This document shows, one piece after another, positions 1,626-48,626 of a stretch of 51,305 nucleotides of DNA. The translations under genes were made by a program, and so were the position numbers. How positions within the stretch are numbered: position 1 is the stretch's first letter; each line of letters begins with the position of its first letter. Below the pieces are notes generated by a model that saw only the letters and a list, made by a program, of their open reading frames with translations, had not been told where the DNA came from and did not search any database. Origin of the DNA: Candidatus Zhuqueibacterota bacterium (GTDB lineage: Bacteria; Zhuqueibacterota; Zhuqueibacteria; Zhuqueibacterales; Geothermadaptataceae); contig JAUZRQ010000073.1 of assembly GCA_030950365.1 (NCBI GenBank), forward strand, positions 1-51,305, given 5' to 3'.

Positions 1626-4511
1626 TCAGGGCAAAATGAGCACCTTTTGGGTGCGGGAAAAAGGTCCGGCCTCCAGGTGAATAAAATACACACCGGGCTC
1701 CAGTCGTAGGCCCGCTGCAGCGATGCGCCAGGCCAGCCGGTGCGAGCCGGCATTAAACCGCCGCGGCGGTAGTGCGGCAATGTGCTGGCCGAGGATGTTG
1801 TACAATTGCAGCGAAACCTCTTGCGGCCGCGGCAGGGCAAACCGGAGGACCACCGCTGCGCATTTTTGCAGAGAGAGCGGATTGGGCGCAGGCGGCCAGA
1901 ACGCAAACTGGCGGGGCAAGGTAGAGCGCGAAGCGCCAGAAATCACCGGGGGGCGGTACGCCATGCGGGCCAGCCGTGCGTTCTGGCGCAGTTCAGTTAC
2001 ATTGGCGCCGGCCATCACGGCAAACGCGACGCGGACCGACGCGCCGGGCGCTAGATCGAACGGGCCATAGGTCAGCATGTGGGACCAGTCGTCCGCATGT
2101 TCGCTGCGCTGAATGGCCAGTTGGCCGCTGGCAAATCGAAATTTGATGGCATCGGTGAAATTGGCCGGCGGCCACACATATTGTGGATTGTTGATGGCGC
2201 TGTGCCGCACCGGCATATCCGGTAGCAGCCCGGCCAGACCGTAATAGCCGCCGGATTCAGCGAACATGAAACCGAGCGCTTCACTTTCAATGAAATCCAC
2301 CTGATTGCTCACCGCCTCACCGATGTCCCAGTCGAGGTACTGTCCGATATACAGTCCCCGCAAGTCCTGGCCGGAAATGTTTTCCACCGTGTATTCGAGG
2401 ATCACGAAACGATCGTTGGGCTCCGTGAGCCAGCCGTACACACTTTCGAACACCAGCACGCCAAGCGGATGATCCGCCGCGGCATCCGTAAACACCGCCT
2501 CGGCGGCGATGTCCGCCCAGTCGGATTCTCTGATCTGAATTTCACCATCCGTTGTGTATTGATAATCGTAGCGGTCGTGGGCGTCATTGCCGTAAGCCAC
2601 ATCGCTGACCGAATCGGGAGCTACCGCCAGAATGAGCGAGCCGTGAAATAGCACTGAGGGACTGCCGCGGGGATATTGAAAACCGAGCCCCACCGTGCCG
2701 CCGCTGCCGGCGTAATCCAGAAAACCGATGGCGCCGAAGCTGGTGACGGTGGTGGCCACGCGGCCGGCGACGATGTTCCGGTAGTAAGGCTTGACGATCA
2801 GCGGCACGCCGAAAAAATCCCGGTGTGGTCCGGCTTCGATTTGCAGGATCAGATGCGTCTGGTAGCTCGCCGGTGTGGTTTCCTTGATGCGCAACCGAAA
2901 GGCTGGCCCCGCGAGGGTATCGCCCGGCGCCAGCGCGCCGAGGCTCGCGTCGCCGGTCAAAATGTCAATGTACGAATCCATCGGCATGATGCGGATGCGA
3001 ACGCCGCTGACCGGCGCCAGATCGTTGGTTACCCGCCAGCGCAATTCCAGGATTTCGCCCGGCTCAAAGATGCCATCGCCATCGCCTCCGCTTTGATCCG
3101 AAAGTTCCGGCGATAGAATGCGGATACCGGGCGGGGTCTCAGTAAGGGCGCGGACTACATTGAGCCGGCCACGCCCGAGCTTGTAATAATGGTCCGGGTT
3201 TTTATCGCTAATGGGATCGGCGGTCTGCCGTAGTTGCTGTGCGATGGCCACTGCGCTCCAGTCCGGATGCTGCGATTTCACCAGTGCCGCCGCTGCGGCC
3301 ACCAGCGGTGCGGCCATGGAGGTGCCGGACATGAAGCGGTAATCCTTCCCGGGCCACGTGCTGTACAGGCCAATGCCGGGTGCGGTGAGATCTAGCCAGT
3401 GACCGAAGTTGGAAAAATTGGCGCGTTCATCGTTCAGGTTCGTGGCGGCCACGGCCAGCACGTGCTCGTAGGCCGCAGGGTAAAAAGGCTGCTCGGACTG
3501 GCTGTTGCCGGCGGCCGCCACGACCACCACGCCTCTGGATACGGCATAGCGAATAATGTCCTGCTCCACCTGGCTGGATCCCGGGCCGCCCCAGCTCAGG
3601 TTGATCACATCGGCGCCGTTTTCGATGGCATAGGCAATGGCGCGGAAGCCGTAAATGATACCGTCGGCGGCCGGAGCCGAGGGCGTGTCCAGCGCAGCCT
3701 TGAGAATCATCAACCGGCAGCCAAAGGCCAGCCCGGCGACGCCAAGTCCGTTGTTGCCGGCGGCCGCGGCCAGTCCTGCCACATGCGTGCCGTGCGCCGC
3801 CGCGGCGGTGCTGGCATAATTTTTCGGATCGTTATCGTTATTGGCAAAATCCCATCCGTGCACGTCATCGATATAACCGTTGCCATCGTCATCGAGACCG
3901 TTGCCCGGGATTTCGCCCGGATTGCGCCACAGGTTGGGCGCGAGGTCCGGGTGTTGCCAGTCCACCCCCGTATCCACAATAGCGATGACCACCGTGGAGT
4001 CCCCGTGGGTGATGTCCCAGGCCTGCGGTGCCTGAATGATGTTCAAATAATTTTGCAGAGTGATGCCGGGATCGTTGGGGACGAAGGCCAACCGGCGAAC
4101 GTAAATGGGTTCAGCGTATTCGATGCGATCATCTTTTTGCAAAGCCGCCGCCAGCGAACGTACGGGCACCGCTGGATCGAATTCAATTTCGATGATGCGG
4201 GAGAGCCGCTCGCGCCAGAGCGCATCCCGGATCATGGTGGCTGGAAATGCGGGCCGGGCCGAAATGGCACCGGCTGCCTGAAGCATGCGTCGCAGCTTAT
4301 CGGATAGCGGCAGCGCAGTGATTGGCGTCGATTTGCCGAGGATTGGCGGGCGCTGCTTGAATTTGACGATGAGATGTCCGGGCAGAATGGTATCGGTGTG
4401 GGCGGGCAAAATACCAGCCGCTGCCCGGCCGGACCGGAAAGACCATGGCAGCAGAAAAAGAGCAGTGATCAGAGCCGTTGCGATGTTGACATATCGAGAT
4501 GTACGGTTCAT
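1626..4511 (-). CDS. Secreted subtilisin-like (S8) serine protease with Por sorting domain
   Basis: A 961-residue protein. Residues 1-32 form a signal peptide (basic start, hydrophobic 10-23). A propeptide-like region follows to ~150, ending with the EYAEPIY motif usual before S8 domains. The S8 catalytic domain spans ~160-455: Asp180 (VDTGVDW), His240 (HGTHVAG), oxyanion Asn336 (AAAGN) and Ser398 (GTSMAAP). A DxDGDGxFEPGE calcium-like loop at ~474-485 begins a beta-rich region. Residues ~580-850 carry a module shared with two other proteins here (DWDI at 727-730, GPF at 816-818). The C-terminal ~90 residues match type A Por secretion/sorting domains (APNPLS, YNILGQ, GVYFIHL). It should be an exported, surface or released protease. 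A larger paralogue lies upstream at 5779-9324, with the TPR lipoprotein gene between. The ribosome site is weak. Substrate unknown. Confidence 0.93.
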   Translation of the reverse strand: MNRTSRYVNIATALITALFLLPWSFRSGRAAAGILPAHTDTILPGHLIVKFKQRPPILGKSTPITALPLSDKLRRMLQAAGAISARPAFPATMIRDALWRERLSRIIEIEFDPAVPVRSLAAALQKDDRIEYAEPIYVRRLAFVPNDPGITLQNYLNIIQAPQAWDITHGDSTVVIAIVDTGVDWQHPDLAPNLWRNPGEIPGNGLDDDGNGYIDDVHGWDFANNDNDPKNYASTAAAAHGTHVAGLAAAAGNNGLGVAGLAFGCRLMILKAALDTPSAPAADGIIYGFRAIAYAIENGADVINLSWGGPGSSQVEQDIIRYAVSRGVVVVAAAGNSQSEQPFYPAAYEHVLAVAATNLNDERANFSNFGHWLDLTAPGIGLYSTWPGKDYRFMSGTSMAAPLVAAAAALVKSQHPDWSAVAIAQQLRQTADPISDKNPDHYYKLGRGRLNVVRALTETPPGIRILSPELSDQSGGDGDGIFEPGEILELRWRVTNDLAPVSGVRIRIMPMDSYIDILTGDASLGALAPGDTLAGPAFRLRIKETTPASYQTHLILQIEAGPHRDFFGVPLIVKPYYRNIVAGRVATTVTSFGAIGFLDYAGSGGTVGLGFQYPRGSPSVLFHGSLILAVAPDSVSDVAYGNDAHDRYDYQYTTDGEIQIRESDWADIAAEAVFTDAAADHPLGVLVFESVYGWLTEPNDRFVILEYTVENISGQDLRGLYIGQYLDWDIGEAVSNQVDFIESEALGFMFAESGGYYGLAGLLPDMPVRHSAINNPQYVWPPANFTDAIKFRFASGQLAIQRSEHADDWSHMLTYGPFDLAPGASVRVAFAVMAGANVTELRQNARLARMAYRPPVISGASRSTLPRQFAFWPPAPNPLSLQKCAAVVLRFALPRPQEVSLQLYNILGQHIAALPPRRFNAGSHRLAWRIAAAGLRLEPGVYFIHLEAGPFSRTQKVLILP

Positions 4512-5778: not shown

Positions 5779-8700
5779 CTACTGCATAAAAATCATCTTG
5801 CGCACTTTTGAAAATTCCGGAGTTTTGAGCTGATACAAATACAGGCCGGTGGCCACGCGACGGCCGCGGTCGTCGCGGGCATCCCAGCGCAGACGGTGAA
5901 TGCCGGCTTCCTGCTCGCCGTCATACAGCACCCGGATCACCTGTCCGAGCGCATTAAACACCGTCACCGTGACATGCGTGCTGCGCGGCAACTCGTATTC
6001 GATCACCGTTTCGGGATTGAACGGATTCGGGTAGTTCTGCCGCAGCACGAACCGCTCCGGCAGGGCCAGCACGTTCTGCAAACTGTCGATCACCGCCAGC
6101 CGGAAATCGCCGGGATGGGTGATCTGAGCAAACGCGCTCTGGCGATCCGCGCGCAGCCGGGTGGTCAGTGTGGTCCAGCGGCCACCGACCCTCTTCTGGA
6201 TGAACACATGCCGCGGATCGGTAATGCCGGCCTCGTCAAGATTGAGTTCGATCCGCAGGGGCCGCTCGAATTCCCGCGTCGGTCCAAACCGGTACACACG
6301 GCCATCGGTCAACTCGAGCACATCCGCCATGATGAACAGCGTGTCGCTCACCGCATCGGCCGGAATAAACAACCGCGCCCGGCCGTCGGTGCTGGTGAGT
6401 TGCGTTTGTACGCCCGGTTTGGCGATCTGCACCTCAAACGTGCGCGTTTGCGTGCTGTCCACATCATTGATAAGATTGGTCGAGCGCGTGCGGATGGTGT
6501 ACGTGCCGGCGGCCTGAAACTCAAACGCCCCGCGATAGGCCTCGGCCTCCTGCACGATGCGCGTCATGGTCACGCGGGTGGTGTCCGCATTTTGCCAGAT
6601 ATCCACCACCGGCGGGCCTTTCAGCGCGCGATCGGCGATCACCACCACATCGGCGTATTGTGTGGCCGCCGGGTTCTGAAAAATCTGCGTGCTGGTTGCA
6701 GCCGCCTTCTGGTTTAGAATCGGAATCAGGTTGTTATCCCACAGAAATTGCGCCAGCTCGGCATTGCGGATGAATTCATCCTGACTGTTGCCGCCGATTA
6801 CCGCAAACGCCACCTCGATGGTTTCGCCCGGATTGATGGTGAACGGCCCGGTGGAGGCCAGACTGGAGACATCGTTGCTGTCCACCACGGTGCGCTGGAT
6901 GCCGCCGCTCAGAAATTGCCATTTTTCCTGATCGGTAAAACCATCGCGGCCCTGCCCGCCATAAATGTCGTCCGGGTTGCTGATAGAGCGGTACGACGCG
7001 GCGCCCGGGGCGCTCAGCACGCGCGTGCCGGCCAGATTTTTCGGATTGGTTTTTGTGTCCTGCACCCAGCCCAGATTGCGGCGCGGATCGAAGCGGGCGT
7101 AATCATTGGCATCGGTGTTGATGTCCCAATCGAAAAACAGGCCGGTCCACAAATTGCTGATGGGGGTGGTGTTGAGATTTTTGATGATGTATTTGAAAAT
7201 TACGAAGCCGTTGAACGGATCGGTGCTATAGGCATACGAAGTTTGCGCGATTTCTACGCCCAGTGGATTGGTGGCGAACGAGTCCACCAGCACCACTTCG
7301 CCTTCCTGATCGGCGAGATTGCCGGGCTCCACCAGCGTGACCAGTGAGATGGGCCGGAAATCGTCGTCCTGGGTGGAGCCGTCCGCTCCGCGGATGCAAT
7401 CAGATACGGTGGCCACGCCCGTGCCCAGCATCAGTCCTCCCTCGAACAGATAGTTACGGTTGCGAAACACGAAGCCCACTCCGGGCGATTCCTGCGCAAA
7501 ACCGGTGAAGCCGATATTGCCCTGCGCCGTGATGGAGGTTTGCAGAACGCCAGTATCGTGGTTCACCACCTGTGGCGGATTGGCGATCAAGTCCACCACA
7601 TCGCGGTCTTCGTAATTGTCCGCCTGAATATTGACATAAAATGAAAGAATCTCGCCTTCGCGCAAATTCCGGCGCACATGAAAGGTAAACGGAAACGCAA
7701 GCGTATCGCCGGTGGCAAAACTGGGAACGACCGACACCGTGCTGTCGATGGTCACGGTGATGTCATCGGTTCCCAGGGTCAGCACGACGTTGGTGGCCGT
7801 GGCGAGAAAATTGGTCAATTTGACCTGCATGCGGATGGACTCTTGCGGCTCGATCTGGCCGTTGCCGTTGCTATCCTGAAACGAGCTGCTCACCACGCGG
7901 ATGGCCGGCAGGCCGCTCACCGTCAGCGCTTCGTACGCCTGCACCTTACCGCGGCCCATTTTGCCAGTGAAATTCGGATTCAGATTGTCGATGTTTTTGG
8001 CGGACACGCGCAGTTGCTCCCGCAGTTGATCCACATTCCAGTTTGGATGTTTGGTTTTGAGCAGTGCGGCGATGCCGGCCACCAGCGGCGAGGCCATGGA
8101 TGTGCCGGAAATGCGGCCGTATTGATTGTCCGGAAGCGTGCTCAAAATCGCCTCGCCCGGCGCGAACACATCCACGTTGATGCCGTAGTTGGAAAAGCCG
8201 GACTTGCGGCCGAAGTTGCTGATCGAGCCTACCGCCAGTACGTGGTTGTAATTGGACGGAAAGTGTGGACCGGTATCGTTGCTGGTGCCGTCATTGCCAG
8301 CGGCGGCCACCACCAGCGATCCCTGCGCATAAGCGAAATTAATGACCTCCTGCTGCAGCTTGGACGGGCTGTGCTTGCCGCCCCAACTGCAGTTGATGAT
8401 ATCGGCGCCGTTTTCCGCCGCATACACAATGCCCTGATAGCCGAAGCCGATGGAGGTATCGGCGCGGGCGCTGGCCGCATTGATGGGCATGAATTTGGCG
8501 TTCCAGCTCGCTCCGGCCACACCGATGCGGTTGTCGCTCACTGCGCAGGCGATGCCGGCCACGTGGGTGCCGTGCTGCGGATTGAGCGTCTGGTCCGGCA
8601 GGCCACTGGGATCGCCGGAGCCGTTGGCGAAATTCCAGCCGTGCACGTCATCCACAAAGCCGTTGTTATCATCATCGATGCCGTTGCCGGGAACCTCATC

Positions 8701-9324
8701 TTCGTTGACCCAGACATTGGCCTCCAAATCCGGATGCCGCCAGTCGGTGCCACCATCCACGATGGCGACCACCACGTTGCCATCCTCGCCCTTGACGAGG
8801 TCCCAGGCCTGCGGTAGGTTCACGGCATTGAACTGGCCCTGTTGCACATACAGCGAATCGTTGGGCACAATCTGCAACGTGTACAGATAATTCGGTTCCG
8901 CATATTCCACCGATGGATCGAGCCGCAGCTCGCGGGCCAGCTCCAGCGGATCTTTGCTTGCATCGAAATGCAGGGTAAACACGCGTTGCAACTCGGGTGC
9001 AAATGGATTGCCGATGGACTGGATAAACGGAAATGTGGCCTCGACGCGATATACACCATAGGTCGAAAACACCTGCTCCAGCCGGGGACCGCGCTTGAAG
9101 CCGGCCTTGCCCAGCATGGCCTGCGGCCGGAATTTAACGAATAGCACGCCGGGTTCGACGCGGACCGTGGCGGAGCTGAAACTACCGGACTTTTGCAGAG
9201 CAGGCTTTCGGCCAGTCGAGGATGCACCTACGGCGGCAAAGGCGTTTGCCGGATGAGTTGCCAGGGCAGTACAAAAGGCGAAAGGGACAATGGATAGCAG
9301 AAATCGGATCGTATTCCGGTTCAT
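5779..9324 (-). CDS. Large secreted subtilisin-like (S8) protease with type A Por sorting domain
   Basis: An 1181-residue paralogue of the 1626-4511 protease. It has a signal peptide (to ~30), a propeptide ending in EYAEPNYLY (~140-148), and an S8 domain with Asp190 (VDGGTDW), His251 (HGTHVAG), Asn344 (AAAGN) and Ser409 (GTSMASP). A DSNGNGQIEPQE calcium-type loop lies at ~484-495. The shared module follows (~590-865; FDWDI at 731-735, GPF at 826-828). This version then has about 200 extra residues: an Ig-like stretch (~890-980) and a ZU5-like stretch (~990-1085, FIPADAVSDTLFI). A classic type A sorting domain ends it (QNYPNPFNPETVI, FNALGQ, GLYLYQL; last ~85 residues). The start follows AAGAGGC. 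Expected outside the cell via type IX secretion. Substrate unknown. Confidence 0.94.
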   Translation of the reverse strand: MNRNTIRFLLSIVPFAFCTALATHPANAFAAVGASSTGRKPALQKSGSFSSATVRVEPGVLFVKFRPQAMLGKAGFKRGPRLEQVFSTYGVYRVEATFPFIQSIGNPFAPELQRVFTLHFDASKDPLELARELRLDPSVEYAEPNYLYTLQIVPNDSLYVQQGQFNAVNLPQAWDLVKGEDGNVVVAIVDGGTDWRHPDLEANVWVNEDEVPGNGIDDDNNGFVDDVHGWNFANGSGDPSGLPDQTLNPQHGTHVAGIACAVSDNRIGVAGASWNAKFMPINAASARADTSIGFGYQGIVYAAENGADIINCSWGGKHSPSKLQQEVINFAYAQGSLVVAAAGNDGTSNDTGPHFPSNYNHVLAVGSISNFGRKSGFSNYGINVDVFAPGEAILSTLPDNQYGRISGTSMASPLVAGIAALLKTKHPNWNVDQLREQLRVSAKNIDNLNPNFTGKMGRGKVQAYEALTVSGLPAIRVVSSSFQDSNGNGQIEPQESIRMQVKLTNFLATATNVVLTLGTDDITVTIDSTVSVVPSFATGDTLAFPFTFHVRRNLREGEILSFYVNIQADNYEDRDVVDLIANPPQVVNHDTGVLQTSITAQGNIGFTGFAQESPGVGFVFRNRNYLFEGGLMLGTGVATVSDCIRGADGSTQDDDFRPISLVTLVEPGNLADQEGEVVLVDSFATNPLGVEIAQTSYAYSTDPFNGFVIFKYIIKNLNTTPISNLWTGLFFDWDINTDANDYARFDPRRNLGWVQDTKTNPKNLAGTRVLSAPGAASYRSISNPDDIYGGQGRDGFTDQEKWQFLSGGIQRTVVDSNDVSSLASTGPFTINPGETIEVAFAVIGGNSQDEFIRNAELAQFLWDNNLIPILNQKAAATSTQIFQNPAATQYADVVVIADRALKGPPVVDIWQNADTTRVTMTRIVQEAEAYRGAFEFQAAGTYTIRTRSTNLINDVDSTQTRTFEVQIAKPGVQTQLTSTDGRARLFIPADAVSDTLFIMADVLELTDGRVYRFGPTREFERPLRIELNLDEAGITDPRHVFIQKRVGGRWTTLTTRLRADRQSAFAQITHPGDFRLAVIDSLQNVLALPERFVLRQNYPNPFNPETVIEYELPRSTHVTVTVFNALGQVIRVLYDGEQEAGIHRLRWDARDDRGRRVATGLYLYQLKTPEFSKVRKMIFMQ

Positions 9325-39151: not shown

Positions 39152-39180
39152 TTGGTAAAAATGTTTCAACGCTGTATAAA
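39152..39180 (+). promoter_or_regulatory. Putative promoter of the TonB receptor-cargo-PorV unit
   Basis: TTGGTA (39152-39157), 17-bp spacer, TATAAA (39175-39180). It would give a leader of roughly 220 nt before the receptor ATG, which has its own ribosome site (AGGGAGGA). Confidence 0.45.
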
Positions 39181-39408
39181 GTTAAATCTGGGGCCCGGAG
39201 CGGAAGCATGTCAATAATTCCAAGGGATTGGCACGCGTCATCTTTGTGTTGTTTGATTTTTTTGAGACGGAAGGGAGATGTTCAAACAGAAAGGAGGTGC
39301 AAAGCCAGAAATATTTCCGGCCAGATGCGCTTTGCTGTAAATCAAGTGTTCATGCAAAAAGGACTTCATTCCTCACTAAAGAATGGGAGTTAATCTAGGG
39401 AGGATACG

Positions 39409-42400
39409 ATGCTAAAAAAATGGATGGCTTTATTCCTCGTTGTCATGATCCCAGGCGCCGCATTGTTTGCCGGTACCACGGGCAAAATTGCCGGTGTGGT
39501 CAAAGATAGGGAAACCGGCGAACCCCTGCCTGGTGCAAACGTCGTGATTGTGGGGACGACCCTGGGTGCTGCGACGAACGTGAATGGTGAGTTCGTCATT
39601 CTGAACGTCCCTGCAGGCACGTATGATGTTAAAGCAAGTTTTATTGGCTATCGCGATGTGACCATCCGCAATGTTCGAGTGCATATCGATCTCACCACGG
39701 AACTGACGTTTGAGCTCCCCAGTGAGGCCATCGAGTTGGGGGCGGTGGAAGTGATCGCGGAACGGCCTTTGGTAAACAAAAATGCGACCAACGAAGTGCA
39801 TATCCGCACGGCGGAAGATATCGAAAGCCTGCCGGTGCGTGGCTATGCGGCCATCGCTTCTCTGGAAGCCGGTGTGGTGCGGTCCGGCGGCAATTTGCAC
39901 GTGCGCGGTGGGCGTCGTGAAGAGGTTGCGTATTATATCGATGGCGTGTATCAGAACAACCCGCTGACCCTCGGACGCGCCGGTGAAATCAGCAACAACT
40001 CCATCGAAGAGGTGCAGTATCAGGCCGGTGGTATGGGCGCCGAGTACGGTTTTGCCAACTCCGGCGTGATCAATGTGACCACCAAGACCGGCGGGAATCA
40101 GTATCGTCTGGGCGGTGAGCTCATCAGCGATGAGTTCCTGAAAGAGCGCGAAACCCTGCTGGGAACCTATTCCTACGGCTACAATCTGTACAACATCAAT
40201 TTCAGCGGCCCGGTCCCTGGAACCGACAATAAGATCAAATTTTATATTGCCGGTGAGCGTCGCTTCTTCCGGGATCAGAGTCCCACAAACTCCACCTTCC
40301 CCGCGATGGTGAAAGTGGGCACCAACGAGATCGTGTATCCGATGCCCTGGCTCTGGCCAGATGAAAATGGTGATAACATCCCGGATGAAACTATCTGGGA
40401 AAATCACATTAAACTGGTTGATGAAAACAATCTGATCTATCGTTTCCCGGTGGCCACGGGCTATTTCCCGGAAACCGACAGCACCAAGATTGATACCGTG
40501 GAAGCTCAATTCAAGATGGTGCGCGGCCCCAAGCCGAACAACGAGTCGTCTCAATGGCACTGGAATGGCAACCTCACGTTCGATTGGAAAACCCTGAAGT
40601 TTAAGCTGGGAGGCAATTCTTCCCGGATCGTGAGCAGGAGTTATATCCAACAGTTTTCGTTGTTCAACGGCCTGCGCAACCGAAAGAATGTGACCTTCTC
40701 GGATGCCTATTATTTAAAAGTTACCCACACTCCGGGGCCGAACACCTTCTGGACCGCCACGCTGAGCTATTTCCGCACCGGTGGCGAATCGGGCGATCCC
40801 TACTGGTGGGATGATTTGTTGAATGCCGGTGACCGGACCGACTACAACGGCGATGGCAAGTCCAATCCCTGGATGCTGAAAAACGGTCAGGATATGAGCG
40901 ATCCGGACTTTTTTGCCCGCTTTGCGGCTCCCGGCAATATCGTCGGCGGCTTCAGCAAACAGGAAATCGGCTATCTCGGTTTCAAAGCCGATCTGACGCA
41001 CCAAATCGGCCGCACGCATGAGCTGAAGGCCGGTATCGAATACCGTTACAACACGGTGCGTTCTTACAATATCAATACCCATCGCCTGGCTCTAAATACG
41101 GTGGCTCAGGGCTTGACGCAGCCGGGTGATAATGAATTCCGCGCCTCTTACACCGACAACATTGGCTACGATTTCTGGGGCCAGAAAAAGATCGACGAAG
41201 GTCCCTTCGCGGCCAAGCACCCGGTGGTGTTCTCGGTGTATGGCGAAGACAAGATGGAGTTCAAAGACCTGGTGCTTAAGCTGGGTCTGCGCCTGGATTA
41301 TTTTGATCCGGCGGAAAAACGCTTTGCCAATCCAGCCGACATCAAAATCGTCAATGGCCAGATCGATGAAAAGCAGTTGGTGGATCCCGTCACTCACCTG
41401 AATATTAATCCGCGAATTGGTATCTCTTTCCCGGTCACCGATCGTACGGTGTTCCATGCTCAGTATGGCAAGTACACGCAGACGCCGGAGCTGAACCGTC
41501 TGTTTGTGCCTCTGGTGGGTTTTGCGAACGACTTGCAGGCCGGTAACTTTACCATTTCCGGCAACCCGGAACTGAAGCCGGTGAAGACGACCTCGTACGA
41601 AATCGGTTTCCGTCAGCAGATTGGTGACAACATGGCCCTGGACATTACGGCCTACTTCAAAGAACAGCGTGATCTTGTGCAGGTGCGCAATCTGTTCCCC
41701 GAAGAAGGCGCGCAGCACGGCGTGTATGCTCGCTATGTTAATGGTGATTACGGTACGGTCAAAGGCCTGTCGTTTAGTTTTGATCTGCGCCGGACCAACC
41801 GCGTAGCGGCACGTGCTAGCTATACGCTGCAGTATGCTGGTGCCACCGGTTCGAACGCCACCAGTGGTTTCGCCGCGGCCTGGCTCGGTACGCAGACGGT
41901 GACGTTCGTGTCGCCCACGGATTTCGACCAGCGCCATACCGGTACGGTGAACATCGATTTCCGGACCCGTCCGGATGATGGTCCCGAGTTCATGGGCGGA
42001 CATCCGTTCGGTCGTCTCGGATTGAACCTGTTGTTCACCTTCGGTAGCGGTCTGGCTTACACGCCAATCGAAGTGCGTTCGTTTATTTTCGGTGGCACGC
42101 TGCGTCCGATTCCGCGTGCGGCGGTCAACTCGGCTCATATGCCGTGGCAGTACAATCTGGACGTGCGTATCGACAAGCGCTTCGAGGTTGGCAATGTTGA
42201 GCTCGACGCTTATGTCTGGATTATCAACCTGTTTAATAATGAGAATGTACAGAACGTGTTCCCCTCCACGGGCAACCCGGATGACGACGGCTGGTTGCGC
42301 ACTCTGGAAGGCCAGTCCTACCAGAAAGAGCAACCGCATGCGGCCAAGTACTACCTGCCGCGCATTGTCAGTCCCTTTAACTGGGGAGCCCCACGGCAGA

Positions 42401-42438
42401 TTCGTTTTGGCTTGCGTTTTGATATCAAAGCGCTGTAA
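39409..42438 (+). CDS. Large TonB-dependent receptor (CarboxypepD_reg-like/plug/barrel)
   Basis: 1009 residues. Signal peptide to ~22 (MALFLVVMIPGAALFAG). CarboxypepD_reg-like domain ~25-110 (GKIAGVVKDRETGEPLPGANV, NVNGEFVILNVPAGTYDV). Plug domain ~120-225 with LHVRGGRREEVAYYIDGV and GAEYGFANSGVINVTTKTGG. The barrel ends in an aromatic-rich C-terminus. It starts a unit with the 1066-residue secreted protein and the PorV-like gene. GGGAGGA before the ATG and a promoter-like pair at 39152 suggest strong expression. It may bind or import a ligand processed by the downstream proteins, or belong to the secretion-linked receptors common in this group; substrate unknown. Confidence 0.93.
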   Translation: MLKKWMALFLVVMIPGAALFAGTTGKIAGVVKDRETGEPLPGANVVIVGTTLGAATNVNGEFVILNVPAGTYDVKASFIGYRDVTIRNVRVHIDLTTELTFELPSEAIELGAVEVIAERPLVNKNATNEVHIRTAEDIESLPVRGYAAIASLEAGVVRSGGNLHVRGGRREEVAYYIDGVYQNNPLTLGRAGEISNNSIEEVQYQAGGMGAEYGFANSGVINVTTKTGGNQYRLGGELISDEFLKERETLLGTYSYGYNLYNINFSGPVPGTDNKIKFYIAGERRFFRDQSPTNSTFPAMVKVGTNEIVYPMPWLWPDENGDNIPDETIWENHIKLVDENNLIYRFPVATGYFPETDSTKIDTVEAQFKMVRGPKPNNESSQWHWNGNLTFDWKTLKFKLGGNSSRIVSRSYIQQFSLFNGLRNRKNVTFSDAYYLKVTHTPGPNTFWTATLSYFRTGGESGDPYWWDDLLNAGDRTDYNGDGKSNPWMLKNGQDMSDPDFFARFAAPGNIVGGFSKQEIGYLGFKADLTHQIGRTHELKAGIEYRYNTVRSYNINTHRLALNTVAQGLTQPGDNEFRASYTDNIGYDFWGQKKIDEGPFAAKHPVVFSVYGEDKMEFKDLVLKLGLRLDYFDPAEKRFANPADIKIVNGQIDEKQLVDPVTHLNINPRIGISFPVTDRTVFHAQYGKYTQTPELNRLFVPLVGFANDLQAGNFTISGNPELKPVKTTSYEIGFRQQIGDNMALDITAYFKEQRDLVQVRNLFPEEGAQHGVYARYVNGDYGTVKGLSFSFDLRRTNRVAARASYTLQYAGATGSNATSGFAAAWLGTQTVTFVSPTDFDQRHTGTVNIDFRTRPDDGPEFMGGHPFGRLGLNLLFTFGSGLAYTPIEVRSFIFGGTLRPIPRAAVNSAHMPWQYNLDVRIDKRFEVGNVELDAYVWIINLFNNENVQNVFPSTGNPDDDGWLRTLEGQSYQKEQPHAAKYYLPRIVSPFNWGAPRQIRFGLRFDIKAL

Positions 42439-42450
42439 GTCATTCGGCCC

Positions 42451-42482
42451 GGGAAACCGCCCGCACTTTCGGGATGGTTCCC
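42451..42482 (+). other. Stem-loop at the receptor-cargo gene junction
   Basis: GGGAA-A-CC (42451-42458) pairs with GG-TTCCC (42476-42482) and encloses CCCG (42460-42463) with CGGG (42470-42473). It begins 13 bases after the receptor stop. No T tract follows, so it may stabilise or process the message rather than end it. Confidence 0.5.
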
Positions 42483-42546
42483 TGAACAATCATAAAATGT
42501 GGGTAGATGAATGCGTAAGAAATCAATGCAAGGAGGGAACTTACCT

Positions 42547-45500
42547 ATGAGGAAGGTTCTATCAATGCTTTCCCTGGGCATGCTGGTCATGTTTGCCATG
42601 GCCGCAATGAGCCCCGGTTTCGCAGGGCTGCCCGGGAATAAACAACCGGTATTGAGTAAACCTGACGTCGTGGAGTTGAGATATTTCCAGCCTAACCGGA
42701 TTAAAACCGACGTTCTGAACGAAGGGCAATGGGTAAGCTGGCGTCGCACCGGTGACGCCGGTATGGAATGGCCCGCTGGATCCGGTAAGACCATTCATTT
42801 CGCAGCCGGTATCTGGATCGCCGGTATGGTTGATGGTGCTGTTCGCACGGCTGCAGCCGAGTTCTCGGTCGAATTTGTGCCCGGGCCCATTGCCCCGGAT
42901 GGTTCGATCGACCCCGATAATCCTCGCCATAAGCTGTACATCATCAGTAAAGCCGACGTGGAAGCGGCTATGGATGACGACCCGGAAACGGTTCCTAGCG
43001 ATGATTATCTCAACTGGCCCAGTGATCTCGGTGCGCCGGTGGATGACAATGGCAATCCGCTGGTGATTGGCAACGGCGCGCTGTGGTGCGTATTTAACGA
43101 TGCGGACCCGGCGCAGCATGGTAACCTGTTCAACACTCCGCCGATCGGCGTTGAGGTACAAATGTACCTGTGGGGCTTCAACCGCCTCGATGCGTTCGGT
43201 GATATGCTGTTCCTGAAATTCACGATCATCAACAAAGGCAATAATGATCTCGATAGCGCCTTCGTTTCGCTGTGGAACGATTTCGACCTCGGTTATGCGG
43301 CGGATGACTTCGTCGCTGTGGATACGACCCTGAGCCTGGGCATTGGCTGGAACGACGGCGCCGATCGTGTGTATGGTTCGCGCGCTCCGGCCATTGGTCT
43401 GGACTTTTTCCAGGGGCCGATCGTGCCGTCTCCTGGCGATACGGCCTTTGTCTCCGGTCGCAAGGTGCCGGATTTCAAGAACCTGCCGATGACCTCGTTC
43501 GCCAAATACATCAACGGCGGTGGTCTGGCATGGGGGGACCCGGAAAGCGCAGAAGAAGCCTACAACTACATGAACGGCCTGAACCGCGCCGGTGAGCCGT
43601 ATGTGGATCCGAACACGGGCCAGACCCTGAAGTTTGCACACCCTGGCGATCCGGTGACGGGAGAAGGCTGGCTGGATCCACAGAGCCATCCGTCGGGTGA
43701 CCGCCGTTTCATGATGACTACCGGACCGTTTACCCTGGCCAAAACCGATACCCAGGAAGTGGTCGCCGGCTTCATGATCGCGCAGGGCGGCAACAACTTG
43801 CAGAGTATTGCGTTGCTGCGGCAGATCGACAAAGCGGCACAAACCGCTTATGAACGGAATTTTGAACTACCTCCGCCGCCGCCCGCGCCGAAAGTGACCG
43901 TAAGCGAGCTGGATGGCGAGGTCGTTCTGACCTGGGACAATGCGGCCGAGAGCTATGATGTGGCCGACCTGGTAGGCCGGCAGACTTTCCAGGGCTACAA
44001 TGTGTACCAGATCGGCGGGCCGCAGCTCACCGGCGACGTCCCCGTTGTCCGTTTGGCCACCTATGATATCGTCGATGGCCAGTTTGATAATGTGCGCGAC
44101 GTGGTGTTTGATCCTGACCTGGGTGAAATCGAAAAAGTCGTGCAGCCGTTGAGCGATAGCGGTATTCGCCGCTTTTATCGCGCCACCGAAGACAAGATCA
44201 ACAAAAAACCGTTGATCAATGGCCGTAAATACTGGTTTGCGGTGACCTCCTTCGGCTACAACCCGGAAGGTTTCACCCCCAGTGGTGTGCCGAAAATCCT
44301 GGAAAGCGCTATCAAAGTGATCGAGGTCGTGCCTCAGCCGGCCCCGGTGACCAAGCAGTTCCAGGCCGGCACTGGTACGGTAATCGCCGAAATGTCGCCA
44401 GATACCACCTTCAACGTAACGCATGAAGGGCCTGGCGATGGTGGCGTGATTGTGGAGGTGGTGGATCCGACCAAGATCACTGGATTGGATTACACTGTGG
44501 TGTTCGAAGAGACCGCCGATGGCATCGTCTGGCACCTGGATCGTTCCGACGGTCAACGGGTACTGGCGAACCAGACCAACCAGAATGGCGATCTGGACTA
44601 TCTGCCGGTGGATGGCTTGCTGGTGCGCGTATCCGGTCCGCCGCTGGCCTTTGGTGCGGGCGAAGGCAACGGGATCGTTGAAGTCGCTTTCAATGGTCAG
44701 CCGCTCACGCCGGACCAATATGACGCGGCCGGGGCACCGTACAATGGCAACAAGGTGTGGCATAGCCTGAATCATAGCAACCAAATCGATCGCTATTATG
44801 TCAGCGCCGGCGGTGGCGGCGGTGCAATTTCGCGCCTGATGCGGTACATTCAGTTTGCCGTGCCGCGCGATTTTGAACTGCGTTTCACCGATACCGGTGG
44901 CTATGGGGTCTATGCTTTTGAAGATGACAAGATTGCAAAAGTGCCCTTTGAAATTTGGGACATTGGTGTGGCAACTCCGGATGATCCCTCCGATGATTAT
45001 CGTATGATCCCGTTCCTGCTGTCGTGGGATTCCACTAAAGCCGAATGGGGTTGGGCTAATGGTACGGATCCAGCCTTCGGTTTCCCGGCCTCAGACTGGG
45101 TGTACTGGATGGATCCGTATGAGAAAACCTCATCGACCAAGTCGTATGACGATTTCGCCGCAGCGGCTGAGGCTGCCGGTGGCCCGGGTGGAACCTATCC
45201 ATTCGATGGCAACCAGCCGCACTGGGGCTACTTCATCGATCGTCATGGCGGCTTCGTCTACCCGATCGGTCGTTCGATCTACTGCGATTTTGACGGTAAT
45301 GGCACTCCGCCGCCGTCGGGTACGGTGATTCGTTTCAACACCACCAAGCCCAACTCGCCGCAGGATCGATACACATTCAGCACCAAAGGATTCGAGCCCA
45401 AGACCCTATCCACGGCCGATGCTTCCAAGAAGGCCGCAGAAATGGTCAATGTGTTCCCGAATCCGTACTACGGTCGCAACAAAGAAGAAACCGATCCGGT

Positions 45501-45747
45501 CAACCGGTTCGTCACGTTCTCGCATTTGCCCGAAACCGCCACGATTCGCATCTTCACTCTGGGTGGTAAGCTGGTGAAGGTGATCAACCACAGTGGCGGC
45601 CAGTTCGAGCAGTGGGATCTCCGCAATGACGCAGGAATTCCGGTTGCCAGCGGAATCTACATTGTGCACATCGAGATGGGCGCTTTGGGCGAAAAGGTGC
45701 TGAAAGTGGCCGTCTTCATGCCTGAAGAGCGCCTGGATGCGATTTAA
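42547..45747 (+). CDS. Large secreted protein with Fn3-like region and Por-type C-terminal domain
   Basis: 1066 residues. The frame opens at 42511, but AAGGAGGG at ~42532-42539 lies inside that extension and points to ATG 42547, followed by a good signal peptide (KVLSMLSLGMLVMFAMAAM, to ~26). Residues ~80-420 contain the module shared with both S8 proteases (NDFDLG at 244-249, TTGPFTL at 391-397, MIAQGGNN at 410-417). A proline-rich hinge (ELPPPPPAPK ~436-446) precedes a fibronectin-III-like domain (VTVSELDGEVVLTWDN ... FQGYNVYQ). The last ~100 residues (NVFPNPYYG ... IFTLGGKLVKVI ... ASGIYIVHIEM) match type A sorting domains. It has no catalytic motif I know. It probably sits on the cell surface, exported with help from the PorV-like protein encoded next. 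Confidence 0.88.
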   Translation: MRKVLSMLSLGMLVMFAMAAMSPGFAGLPGNKQPVLSKPDVVELRYFQPNRIKTDVLNEGQWVSWRRTGDAGMEWPAGSGKTIHFAAGIWIAGMVDGAVRTAAAEFSVEFVPGPIAPDGSIDPDNPRHKLYIISKADVEAAMDDDPETVPSDDYLNWPSDLGAPVDDNGNPLVIGNGALWCVFNDADPAQHGNLFNTPPIGVEVQMYLWGFNRLDAFGDMLFLKFTIINKGNNDLDSAFVSLWNDFDLGYAADDFVAVDTTLSLGIGWNDGADRVYGSRAPAIGLDFFQGPIVPSPGDTAFVSGRKVPDFKNLPMTSFAKYINGGGLAWGDPESAEEAYNYMNGLNRAGEPYVDPNTGQTLKFAHPGDPVTGEGWLDPQSHPSGDRRFMMTTGPFTLAKTDTQEVVAGFMIAQGGNNLQSIALLRQIDKAAQTAYERNFELPPPPPAPKVTVSELDGEVVLTWDNAAESYDVADLVGRQTFQGYNVYQIGGPQLTGDVPVVRLATYDIVDGQFDNVRDVVFDPDLGEIEKVVQPLSDSGIRRFYRATEDKINKKPLINGRKYWFAVTSFGYNPEGFTPSGVPKILESAIKVIEVVPQPAPVTKQFQAGTGTVIAEMSPDTTFNVTHEGPGDGGVIVEVVDPTKITGLDYTVVFEETADGIVWHLDRSDGQRVLANQTNQNGDLDYLPVDGLLVRVSGPPLAFGAGEGNGIVEVAFNGQPLTPDQYDAAGAPYNGNKVWHSLNHSNQIDRYYVSAGGGGGAISRLMRYIQFAVPRDFELRFTDTGGYGVYAFEDDKIAKVPFEIWDIGVATPDDPSDDYRMIPFLLSWDSTKAEWGWANGTDPAFGFPASDWVYWMDPYEKTSSTKSYDDFAAAAEAAGGPGGTYPFDGNQPHWGYFIDRHGGFVYPIGRSIYCDFDGNGTPPPSGTVIRFNTTKPNSPQDRYTFSTKGFEPKTLSTADASKKAAEMVNVFPNPYYGRNKEETDPVNRFVTFSHLPETATIRIFTLGGKLVKVINHSGGQFEQWDLRNDAGIPVASGIYIVHIEMGALGEKVLKVAVFMPEERLDAI

Positions 45748-45765
45748 TATCGCACCAATGGCGGC

Positions 45766-45791
45766 GGCATCCTCCCGCTGCGGAGGGTGCC
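45766..45791 (+). other. GC-rich stem-loop at the cargo-porV junction
   Basis: GGCATCCTCC (45766-45775) pairs with GGAGGGTGCC (45782-45791), a 10-bp stem with one T-G wobble and a 6-nt loop. No T tract follows. It resembles the stem-loop at the previous junction in position, though not in sequence. Confidence 0.5.
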
Positions 45792-45868
45792 CCACTGGCC
45801 TGTCAGGCTAAGACTTCCGTCAGTGTGATTTGATGATGGGATCAAAGATCATTTAAGGAGGGCAACCA

Positions 45869-46930
45869 ATGTCAAAGTTTAAAAATATAATCAGTTTTCT
45901 GGTGTTTGCCTCTGTGGTGGTGGCAGCTGTCCACGTGGAGGCGGGTAACCCCAAGCGCCGTGGTACATCCGGTGCTCAGGAGCTGCTGATTCCGGTGGGT
46001 TCCCGGGGCACGGCCATGGGCGGTGCCGTGGTATCCAGCACCAGTGGAATCGATGCGATTTTTTGGAACCCCGCTGGCCTTGCCGGTATTGATGCCGGCG
46101 CGCAGCTTATGGCATCAAATCTGCAATATATTGCCGATATTAGTGTCAACTACGCTGCCGTCGCAGGCAACTTCCGCGGTGTGGGCTGGTTCGGGTTCAG
46201 CATCAAAACTCTCGACTTCGGAGAAATCCCGGTAACCACCGAAGATAATCCTGATGGTACCGGTGCGACTTTTTCACCCACGTTTCTGACCCTCGGTGTC
46301 ACCTACGCCCGTGCTATGACCGACCGCATCTTGTTCGGCGCCACGGTGAAGGTGGTCTCCGAAGAAATTACCCGCGAACGGGCCACGGGTGTGGCATTCG
46401 ACTTCGGTTTGCAGTACAGTACCGGACCCGGCGGTCTCCGTCTGGGTGTTGCCCTGAAAAACCTCGGTGGCAACATGAAGTTCGACGGCCCGGACCTCGA
46501 AGAAAAGGTCAACATCCCTGGCCAGCGGGTGGGAAGCCAGGTGCGCAATCTGCGTGTGCCTTTGAACCCGTTTGAATTGCCCACCACCCTGGAACTGGGT
46601 GTGTCCTATGAATGGAAGGTCAACGAGACCAACAGCCTTACCTTCAGCGGTAGCTTCTTGAACGACAACTTCGGTCTCGACCTGTACTCCGGTGGCGTGG
46701 AATACAATATGAATAATATGGTTTTTCTGCGAGGCGGTTTTGCGGCAGCATACGATGTTGAACAAGCCACATTCCAGACCCAGAGCGAAGAATTCTTGTT
46801 CGGTCCCTCGTTCGGCGCCGGTGTGCAGTACGAAATCACCTCCGGCATCAAACTCGCGATCGATTACGCCTACCGGACTACCCAGTACTTCGATAACAAC
46901 CAGTGGCTCACGCTGACCGTAACGTTTTAA
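45869..46930 (+). CDS. PorV/PorQ-family outer-membrane protein
   Basis: 353 residues. Signal peptide to ~25 (FLVFASVVVAAVHVEAG). The conserved N-terminus ELLIPVGSRGTAMGGAVVSSTSGIDAIFWNPAGL (in two pieces) is the family hallmark, followed by repeated amphipathic beta-strands and an aromatic C-terminus (LTLTVTF), as expected for an outer-membrane barrel of the FadL/PorV fold. PorV is the shuttle protein that takes substrates from the type IX translocon; paralogues serve particular cargo. Its place directly after a sorting-domain protein suggests a dedicated partner. Strong ribosome site (AAGGAGGG). A terminator follows, closing the unit. Confidence 0.9.
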   Translation: MSKFKNIISFLVFASVVVAAVHVEAGNPKRRGTSGAQELLIPVGSRGTAMGGAVVSSTSGIDAIFWNPAGLAGIDAGAQLMASNLQYIADISVNYAAVAGNFRGVGWFGFSIKTLDFGEIPVTTEDNPDGTGATFSPTFLTLGVTYARAMTDRILFGATVKVVSEEITRERATGVAFDFGLQYSTGPGGLRLGVALKNLGGNMKFDGPDLEEKVNIPGQRVGSQVRNLRVPLNPFELPTTLELGVSYEWKVNETNSLTFSGSFLNDNFGLDLYSGGVEYNMNNMVFLRGGFAAAYDVEQATFQTQSEEFLFGPSFGAGVQYEITSGIKLAIDYAYRTTQYFDNNQWLTLTVTF

Positions 46931-46948
46931 TTCGAAACGTGGATATTC

Positions 46949-46985
46949 AAAAGGGGCTGGACCTGTGGGTTCAGCCCCTTTTTTA
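46949..46985 (+). terminator. Intrinsic terminator closing the receptor-cargo-PorV unit
   Basis: AAGGGGCTG (46951-46959) pairs with CAGCCCCTT (46972-46980), with inner ACC/GGT pairs and a run of six or more T (46979-46984). It begins about 20 bases after the porV-like stop. Confidence 0.93.
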
Positions 46986-47213
46986 TGTTATACCTTGCTT
47001 CTATATTTGCGATTATGCATGAAAAACTATGGCTTGATGTTGCATCCAAGGTCAGCGAAAAAAGGGAAAGCACTTTTTTGCCTTTCCATCATAGATGAAG
47101 GGTAGCCAATAGCATAAAATCAGCAATTTTAGCTAAAAATCCCTTTCCCTTTTTTGAAAGAATTTTGTAACATTTAAAAAAGCCAACCGGAACTATTTTA
47201 TGGAGTGTTTTCC

Positions 47214-48626
47214 ATGTTGAACTTGCGCGGCAATGGTAGGGGAGGGAAGCTCCTGGCGTCGTTCCTGCTTCTCTGGGTCTCGGCGGGCTGGGCCCAGCCG
47301 CAAAGAAAATTGCAATTGAGCGTCGATTACGGCATCTTTAGCTTTGGAACCGACCGGACCTATCTGGAACTTTACTACGCCCTGGATCAGAGTGCATTGG
47401 TCTATAAAAAAGACGCGCAGGACCGGCTCATGGCGCAAACCCTGATGCGGTTGAACCTTTTCAAAGGCAAAGAGCTGTATGCCTCCAAAGCCTGGCGGCT
47501 GCAAAGCGCCCTCTTGGACACGACCCGGAAACAGGAGAAAATGGTGGATCAACTGCGCTACGAGGTCGAGCCGGGCCATTACACCATCCGTTTGTTGGCC
47601 CGCGATTTGAACGACTTTGCCAATGCTGATAGCGTCGAGATGGAGATTGATGTGCCGGCACCCCAGAACGACGCCTTCAGCCTGAGCAGCATCCAGCTCG
47701 CCAGCCAGATCACCCGGGTGCAACCCGATCAGCGTGATATCTTCTGCAAAAGCACGTTGCGCATCATTCCCAATCCGGATGGATTTTACGGCCAGGACCG
47801 TCCGCTGCTGTACTACTATATCGAATCCTATCACCTCAACCGCGTGCTGAACGGCTCCATATACAAAACCCGCTGCCAGATCGCCGACGCCAACGGCAAA
47901 CCACTGGACAATCCCAAACCGCGCATCCGCAAAAAACGGCTGGTGGCTTCGGGCCTGGATGTGGGCAACATCAATGTGTCCAACCTGCCGTCCGGCACCT
48001 ATTTTCTGATGTTCACGGTGATGGATGAAAATGATCAGGAAGTCGGCACCACTTCGAAGAAATTTTATGTGTACAATCCCGAGGTGGACAAAACCGTCAT
48101 CGCGCAGCGCAAGAGCACCGATCCACTGTACCAGTATTTCCAGAGCCTGGATGCGCCGCTGCTCGATCGCGAATATGAGCTCATCGCCTATATCGTGCGC
48201 GATCAGGATCGAGAAATCTGGCAAAGCCTGACCAGTGTGGAAGCCAAAAGGGAATTTCTGGCCGCTTTCTGGCGCGCGCGGGATCCGGATCCAAAGACGC
48301 CCGAAAATGAAATGCGGGAAGAGTATTTCAAGCGTCTGGAGGAGGCCAATCGCCGGTTTCGCAGCTACAGCCGCGATGGTTGGCGCACCGACCGCGGGCG
48401 CGTGTACATTCTGTACGGTCCCCCCGATTACATCGATCGTTACCCGAGCACTGGAGATACCAAACCCTACGAAATCTGGACCTATAACTACGTCCCAGGG
48501 CAGGGAAAGGCGGAGTTTATTTTTGCCGATATGAACGAGCTGCGGGAGTTTCAGCTCATCCATGCCACGCCGGTGGGTGAAGTGAAAAACGAAGATTGGA
48601 AACGATTTATCAGCGTTATCCGGTGA
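47214..48626 (+). CDS. GWxTD-domain secreted protein
   Basis: 470 residues from ATG 47214 (GGAG 8 nt before; an in-frame GTG at 47205 overlaps that site). Signal peptide to ~27 (LLASFLLLWVSAGWA). The middle (~30-290) is beta-rich with an extensible Ig-like pattern. The C-terminal domain has the defining GWRTD motif (389-393) followed by GRVYILYGPPDYID and YEIWTYNY. A helical segment precedes it (LTSVEAKREFLAAFWRARDPDPKTP). GWxTD domains are frequent in Calditrichota/KSB1-like genomes and related phyla; their function is unknown to me beyond being secreted or envelope-associated. It follows the terminator of the PorV unit, so it probably has its own promoter. Confidence 0.9.
   Translation: MLNLRGNGRGGKLLASFLLLWVSAGWAQPQRKLQLSVDYGIFSFGTDRTYLELYYALDQSALVYKKDAQDRLMAQTLMRLNLFKGKELYASKAWRLQSALLDTTRKQEKMVDQLRYEVEPGHYTIRLLARDLNDFANADSVEMEIDVPAPQNDAFSLSSIQLASQITRVQPDQRDIFCKSTLRIIPNPDGFYGQDRPLLYYYIESYHLNRVLNGSIYKTRCQIADANGKPLDNPKPRIRKKRLVASGLDVGNINVSNLPSGTYFLMFTVMDENDQEVGTTSKKFYVYNPEVDKTVIAQRKSTDPLYQYFQSLDAPLLDREYELIAYIVRDQDREIWQSLTSVEAKREFLAAFWRARDPDPKTPENEMREEYFKRLEEANRRFRSYSRDGWRTDRGRVYILYGPPDYIDRYPSTGDTKPYEIWTYNYVPGQGKAEFIFADMNELREFQLIHATPVGEVKNEDWKRFISVIR

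Follow-up and report, generated by a model that had tools for sequence, protein, structure and literature searches.

A TonB receptor, a type IX secretion cargo and a PorV/PorQ-like barrel form a recurrent gene cassette that suggests private carriers for divergent sorting signals

We analyzed a 51,305-nucleotide stretch of DNA from Candidatus Zhuqueibacterota bacterium (GCA_030950365.1, contig JAUZRQ010000073.1; hereafter, the window), in which a TonB-dependent receptor, a putative cargo of the type IX secretion system (T9SS) and an outer-membrane barrel of the PorV/PorQ family are encoded one after another. The window corresponds to contig C108 of its 4.98-Mb source genome, which is divided into 136 contigs and is 95% complete. 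The three open reading frames (ORFs) lie on the + strand: 39409-42438 encodes the receptor (1009 amino acids), 42547-45747 encodes the cargo (1066 amino acids) and 45869-46930 encodes the barrel (353 amino acids). The cargo ORF was listed from 42511. However, because an AAGGAGG ribosome site is present at 42530-42536 (+ strand; identical in the congener G001), the start is most likely ATG at 42547 and, therefore, the two junctions are 108 and 121 nucleotides (nt) long. An initial annotation had proposed that a promoter-like pair and a terminator delimit the unit and that each gene has a strong ribosome site. A GGAGG-type site is indeed present before all three ORFs, and the unit is closed by an intrinsic terminator at 46949-46982 (+ strand), in which 15 pairs are followed by a T-rich tail; this region folds at z -5.2, and none of 200 shuffled sequences was equally stable. 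In contrast, the promoter-like pair was not confirmed: upstream of 39409, a sigma-70 scan found no promoter and a Bacteroidetes-type pattern had no match. In the Rfam scan of the window, tRNA alone was matched.

The receptor possesses a CarboxypepD_reg-like N-terminal extension (PF13715), a plug and a barrel, and the latter two score above the Pfam cut-offs (PF07715, 25.7 with a cut-off of 23.9; PF00593, 75.4 with a cut-off of 27). The cargo begins with a signal-peptide-like N-terminus, which has no cysteine within the first 30 residues and hence no lipobox cysteine. There is no Pfam model for the cargo family: the Pfam scan gave no match for the window cargo, hence no SusD domain, and among 30 family members only three were matched, weakly, by FlgD_ig. 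An AlphaFold2 model of the cargo (58 sequences) has a mean pLDDT of 86. In this model, residues 40-441 (42664-43869) resemble the N-terminal domains of GH15, GH94, GH116 and related proteins (best VIA Z 17-19, about 230-270 residues aligned), whose fold we take to be the beta-supersandwich; the catalytic helical barrel of those glycoside hydrolases is absent. The fold matches listed all concern this one domain, and the middle of the protein (residues about 500-960) was barely sampled by them. Because a shared fold does not show a function, we infer only that the cargo would bind a ligand, probably a glycan. An acidic cluster is found at residues 245-273 (43279-43365), where D245, D247, D253, D254, D259 and D273 are conserved in 54-58 of the 58 sequences; this cluster is perhaps a calcium site.

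The cargo ends in a T9SS C-terminal domain (CTD). Residues 968-1056 (45448-45714) form seven strands in the AlphaFold2 model, which is the known architecture of T9SS signals, and K1053 near the end is invariant in all 58 sequences; this residue would correspond to the lysine published for type A CTDs. The window cargo end scored 41 bits with the PorZ model; with TIGR04183 (cut-off 23), it scored 20.9 bits as a protein and 24.6 bits in a six-frame search. Among the 30 family members, the PorZ model matched all CTDs and TIGR04183 matched 15. Thus, we regard this CTD as a PorZ-like variant of type A. The barrel (45869-46930) scored 182.8 bits with the family model NF033709 (curated cut-off 90), which matched all 56 members of the barrel alignment (E<=0.001). 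Its scores are below every equivalog cut-off tested and favor PorQ (NF033711, 92.5 bits; cut-off 220) over PorV (NF033710, 63.1 bits; cut-off 250), with PorV2 at 77.6 bits. The PorP/SprF family model (TIGR03519) did not match the window barrel, and it matched 6 of the 56 members (E<=0.001), far below PorV_fam. By sequence, the barrel matches Flavobacterium johnsoniae PorV (6h3i_F) at E=5e-8. The same PorV is the nearest solved fold to the barrel model (pLDDT 92.4), with a Z of 33.5 and a root-mean-square deviation of 3.2 over 284 residues, above FadL (Z 28-29).

The same three genes are found together in many relatives. When 40 genomes (the source genome and 39 relatives) were searched with the cargo, 35 of them had matches at E<=1e-20. 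The cargo of L104 (candidate division KSB1 bacterium; matches the congener G001) is 93% identical to that of the window. In a profile scan of named genomes, at least 575 cargo relatives were found, of which the best 80, selected without regard to gene neighbors, were analyzed as loci. According to the record titles, these 80 comprise 20 Marinimicrobia, 15 Ignavibacteria or Melioribacter, 14 'Bacteroidetes' metagenome-assembled genomes, 8 KSB1, 5 Zixibacteria, 4 Latescibacterota, 3 Calditrichota or Caldithrix, 7 bacteria without a group label and one each of Deferribacteres, Rhodothermales, the FCB group and Gammaproteobacteria (the last record is perhaps mis-binned). A TonB gene is directly upstream of the cargo gene in 63 loci (absent in 7, not judgeable in 10), and a PorV gene is directly downstream in 66 (absent in 8, not judgeable in 6). 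Where both sides could be tested, the order of receptor, cargo of about 1,000 residues and PorV-like barrel on one strand was present in 59 of 65 loci; among all loci examined, there were 90 full triplets. Exceptions include tandem cargo arrays, L129 and L168, and an unfiltered search showed that a PorV gene is present at L055 and L071. At L069, L074, L085 and L168, two to four cargo-family genes stand in tandem and no PorV gene adjoins them. Thus, the unit outlined in the initial annotation is not split up in most relatives, and the trees of the three genes agree with one another. In the open-access literature searched, no description of this cassette was found.

We compared patristic distances of the barrel, receptor, cargo body and CTD across 87 triplets (the 90 less three duplicates). 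The distances correlated with rho of 0.70-0.82, and the permutation maxima were at most 0.20. These sequence comparisons support inheritance of the cassette as a unit. They do not support specificity of the CTD-PorV pair, because the CTD-PorV correlation is not singled out: a mirror-tree proof of such specificity failed, since there was no excess over other pairs. In the PorV tree (128 rows, 123 different), the cassette PorVs form one clade of 106 rows with a support of 99 on a branch of 0.7, and the PorU-linked PorV at C69 lies outside this clade.

The source genome contains 26 PorV-family matches, and 12-28 such matches per genome were found in 13 of 13 genomes (E <= 1e-20). The order of receptor, cargo and barrel occurs again in the source genome on C111, C69 (twice), C28, C87 and C80; the cassette on C99 is truncated where the contig stops, and that on C63 has a variant order. 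A further receptor resembling that of the window lies near a contig end at C52:67241-69868 (L182). Over the fetched parts of the source genome, a CTD gene is present directly upstream on the same strand for 18 of 23 PorV-family genes, as compared with 10 of 160 other genes (Fisher p=9e-14). Because the loci were chosen around PorV genes, the background of 10/160 is raised if anything. Several PorV-like barrels carry additional domains. At L041 (6220-8190, 656 amino acids; C43) and L042 (6367-8352, 661 amino acids; C77), the barrel is fused to TPR repeats and is preceded by CTD-bearing proteins of 2,806 amino acids (open at the locus end) and 2,620 amino acids, respectively. At L039 (9196-11064; C58), a barrel fused to an OmpA domain comes after a 1,003-amino acid CTD protein; this fusion is perhaps a wall-anchored version.

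The CTDs next to PorV genes differ from stand-alone ones. We compared 16 linked CTD proteins (PorU and L048 were set aside) with 18 unlinked ones from the source-genome loci (19 entries, of which one was a duplicate); all were found with a home-made profile built from cassette CTDs, which favors the finding of such CTDs. TIGR04183 matched 6 of the 16 linked CTDs (22.8-29.1 bits) and 16 of the 18 unlinked CTDs (26.2-49.1 bits; Fisher p=0.003, Mann-Whitney U rank test p=1e-5). The two unlinked CTDs missed by TIGR04183, at C63 and C87, sit in receptor-cassette surroundings. The tree built from the final 130 residues showed 6 changes between the linked and unlinked labels, as compared with a mean of 11.6 after shuffling (0 of 500 shuffles as low). 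A single starred clade holds all receptor-cassette CTDs, also the two unlinked CTDs at C63 and C87, and most inner branches of the tree are weak. Among ten unlinked proteins scanned, four were matched by protease or nuclease models; among ten other linked proteins of the source genome, TIGR04183 matched three. Because of their low TIGR04183 scores, separate clustering and mixed matches to the PorZ and TIGR04183 models, the signals linked to PorV seem to make up a divergent subclass that is PorZ-like only in part. The window itself encodes two subtilase-like proteins that carry type A sorting domains of the T9SS (1626-4511 and 5779-9324, - strand); these proteins have no adjoining PorV gene.

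What the cassette might do can be considered in the light of known T9SS components. In F. johnsoniae, PorV carries type A cargos out of SprA (PMC12618676, PMC10994853). The CTD of PorZ is retained and PorZ binds PorQ; one review has suggested that CTDs handled by cognate PorV-like barrels are shielded from cleavage (PMC10202324). The source genome encodes a SprA translocon (716 bits on C77; cut-off 200) and two PorU-like proteins; a GldM/PorM profile had no match in the source genome and was silent in control genomes too. On this basis, we propose that the cargo would cross the inner membrane by its Sec signal and would be exported through SprA by way of its CTD. The adjoining PorV/PorQ-like barrel, not a general PorV, would take the cargo out of the translocon. 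The barrel would then probably remain on the uncleaved CTD, like PorQ on PorZ and SprF on SprB, and would thereby hold the supersandwich domain beside the TonB receptor, where the domain may collect a ligand, probably a glycan, for uptake. We judge a surface complex of this kind, with a barrel dedicated to carrying and probably also holding a glycan-type binding cargo next to its receptor, to be somewhat more probable than its absence. Because all 30 cassette CTDs scanned match PorZ and the window barrel favors PorQ over PorV, we think that one barrel fills both roles, carrier and anchor, and that the receptor and the supersandwich protein on display act together in uptake. The idea of dedicated surface delivery in the initial annotation is strengthened by the conserved triplets and by the pairing of CTD genes with PorV paralogues across the fetched parts of the source genome.

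Several observations weigh against this proposal. Type A signals have been published as binding one plastic site on PorV and SprA (PMC10994853). Among the ten other linked proteins of the source genome, the PorZ model matched three, and five were matched by neither PorZ nor TIGR04183. One of the 18 linked pairs is PorU itself with its PorV, and another of the 18, L048, has an internal CTD match. The partial correlations were 0.27 for CTD-PorV, 0.44 for CTD-TonB and 0.41 for PorV-TonB. Moreover, the source genome has five SusD matches; no SusD match was obtained in 21 of the 40 genomes searched. In SusCD-type glycan uptake, a TonB receptor is paired with a surface lipoprotein of the SusD family. 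The cassette resembles such pairs in that a TonB receptor adjoins a candidate for surface ligand binding, and it differs in that the cargo lacks both a SusD domain and a lipobox cysteine and possesses a T9SS signal and a PorV partner. Because SusD proteins also occur in the source genome, the cassette is not simply replacing SusD there, and this candidate was ruled out.

Stem-loops without T tracts are present at both junctions, as the initial annotation had described. The core of the first (42451-42482 within 42446-42486, + strand) folds at -15.8 kcal/mol and the second (45766-45791, + strand), a perfect 10-bp stem, at -18.5 kcal/mol. When 12,818 34-nt segments were sampled from the + strand across the 51 kb, 63 reached the folding energy of the first hairpin and 6 reached that of the second. 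A repeat element was ruled out as the origin of the second stem-loop, which has a single copy in the genome. The annotation further suggested that message processing at these hairpins determines the relative amounts of receptor, cargo and barrel. Such processing, or protection of 3' ends, is compatible with the proposed surface complex, and the support for it is weak. Both hairpins are kept in the congener G001: in the second, 20 of 20 stem bases are kept and the loop is rewritten, and in the first the form is kept with changed pairs. Because junction parts outside the hairpins are also well conserved, this retention is suggestive only. Within the same class, folding is better in cassette junctions of 55-150 nt (median z -2.2, n=54) than in other same-strand junctions (-0.8, n=59; p=0.0014, which takes related genomes as independent samples, although they are not). 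On the other side, folding of the whole junctions in the window was unremarkable compared with shuffles (z -1.5 and -1.7), and the gaps are often short: the medians over all cassettes read are 39 and 28 nt, and gaps of at least 35 nt occur in 57 of 107 and 52 of 111, values that may be underestimates because gaps were measured to the furthest-upstream start codon. In the paralogue on C111, the gaps are 51 and 41 nt. Because most other cassettes leave little room for hairpins, mRNA processing would at most be an addition confined to this lineage. Thus, the stem-loops stand, protection or processing of the upstream message in the lineage of the window is possible, and a general setting of the gene ratio by the hairpins is rather doubtful.

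Downstream of the terminator, a GWxTD-domain protein is encoded at 47205-48626 (+ strand; TIGR04514). A GWxTD-domain gene comes after the barrel in 33 of 86 testable cassettes; in the window, the terminator lies between the two. The open-access literature searched names the GWxTD domain nowhere. In some relatives, a DUF4397 gene is present before the receptor (L050, 1824-2546; L081, 1382-2152; L058, 11072-11716), and no such gene was seen before the window receptor.

The cargo could also be an ordinary type A substrate of a general PorV; PorU would process the cargo before its attachment to the surface or its release, and the PorV of the cassette would be a further FadL-like channel that takes part in uptake. 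The invariant lysine near the CTD end, the PorU-linked PorV in the source genome and the nearness of the barrel to FadL/TodX channels (Z up to 29) all fit this explanation. However, CTD genes precede PorV-family genes far more often than other genes, linked CTDs are unlike stand-alone ones, and the fold of the barrel is nearer to PorV than to FadL. We consider this explanation unlikely. That the genes are together merely through co-expression, without a physical complex or a private carrier, is distinctly improbable: the trees agree about equally with no CTD-PorV excess, as it would have it, but the order is fixed across many phyla and in several paralogous copies within one genome, and PorV genes pair with many different CTD proteins beyond these cassettes.

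The proposed complex, in which the barrel would carry and hold the cargo, can be compared with known carriers. Type B cargos need cognate PorP/SprF shuttles, which are commonly encoded directly behind them (PMC12618676). Pairs such as SprB/SprF, Fjoh_3952/Fjoh_3951 and PG1035/PorP resemble the cassette in this gene order, in the presence of several paralogous pairs per genome and in the proposal that the shuttle holds its cargo on the surface (PMC12618676, PMC9143113). In contrast, the cassette has a PorV/PorQ-family barrel and a divergent type A-like signal, and its first gene encodes a TonB receptor. In PorZ/PorQ and PorU/PorV of Porphyromonas gingivalis, a type A-like CTD stays on a PorV-like barrel (PMC10202324), as we propose here. 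However, those proteins are T9SS components, whereas the cassette cargo is a receptor-linked supersandwich protein and the cassette is duplicated. The general PorV shuttle of F. johnsoniae has the same barrel fold and serves the same CTD architecture, but there one PorV serves many cargos (PMC10994853), in contrast to the dozen or more PorV-family proteins per genome found here.

Type A signals have been described as sharing one PorV shuttle, and private shuttles are known for type B (PMC12618676). Our results suggest that the T9SS can use one private carrier per cargo. The wider pattern that we propose is that divergent type A-like signals have private PorV partners, with the receptor cassette as one widespread case. 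In FCB-group bacteria, most of which lack genetics, many PorV paralogues are encoded directly after divergent type A-like signals. This raises the question of whether each signal needs its own PorV, for which many natural pairs are on hand. Tentatively, and with rather more doubt than confidence, we extend the idea to T9SS type A-like signals outside classical Bacteroidota in general. They may follow a one-cargo, one-carrier logic, in which each of a dozen or more PorVs would read a private CTD and stay on it as an anchor. One widespread use would be to combine a TonB receptor and a ligand-capturing supersandwich protein that is delivered by the T9SS and is not a lipoprotein, that is, SusCD-like uptake by a different route. 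The cassette is a candidate machine for nutrient capture, found repeatedly in groups that include Marinimicrobia.

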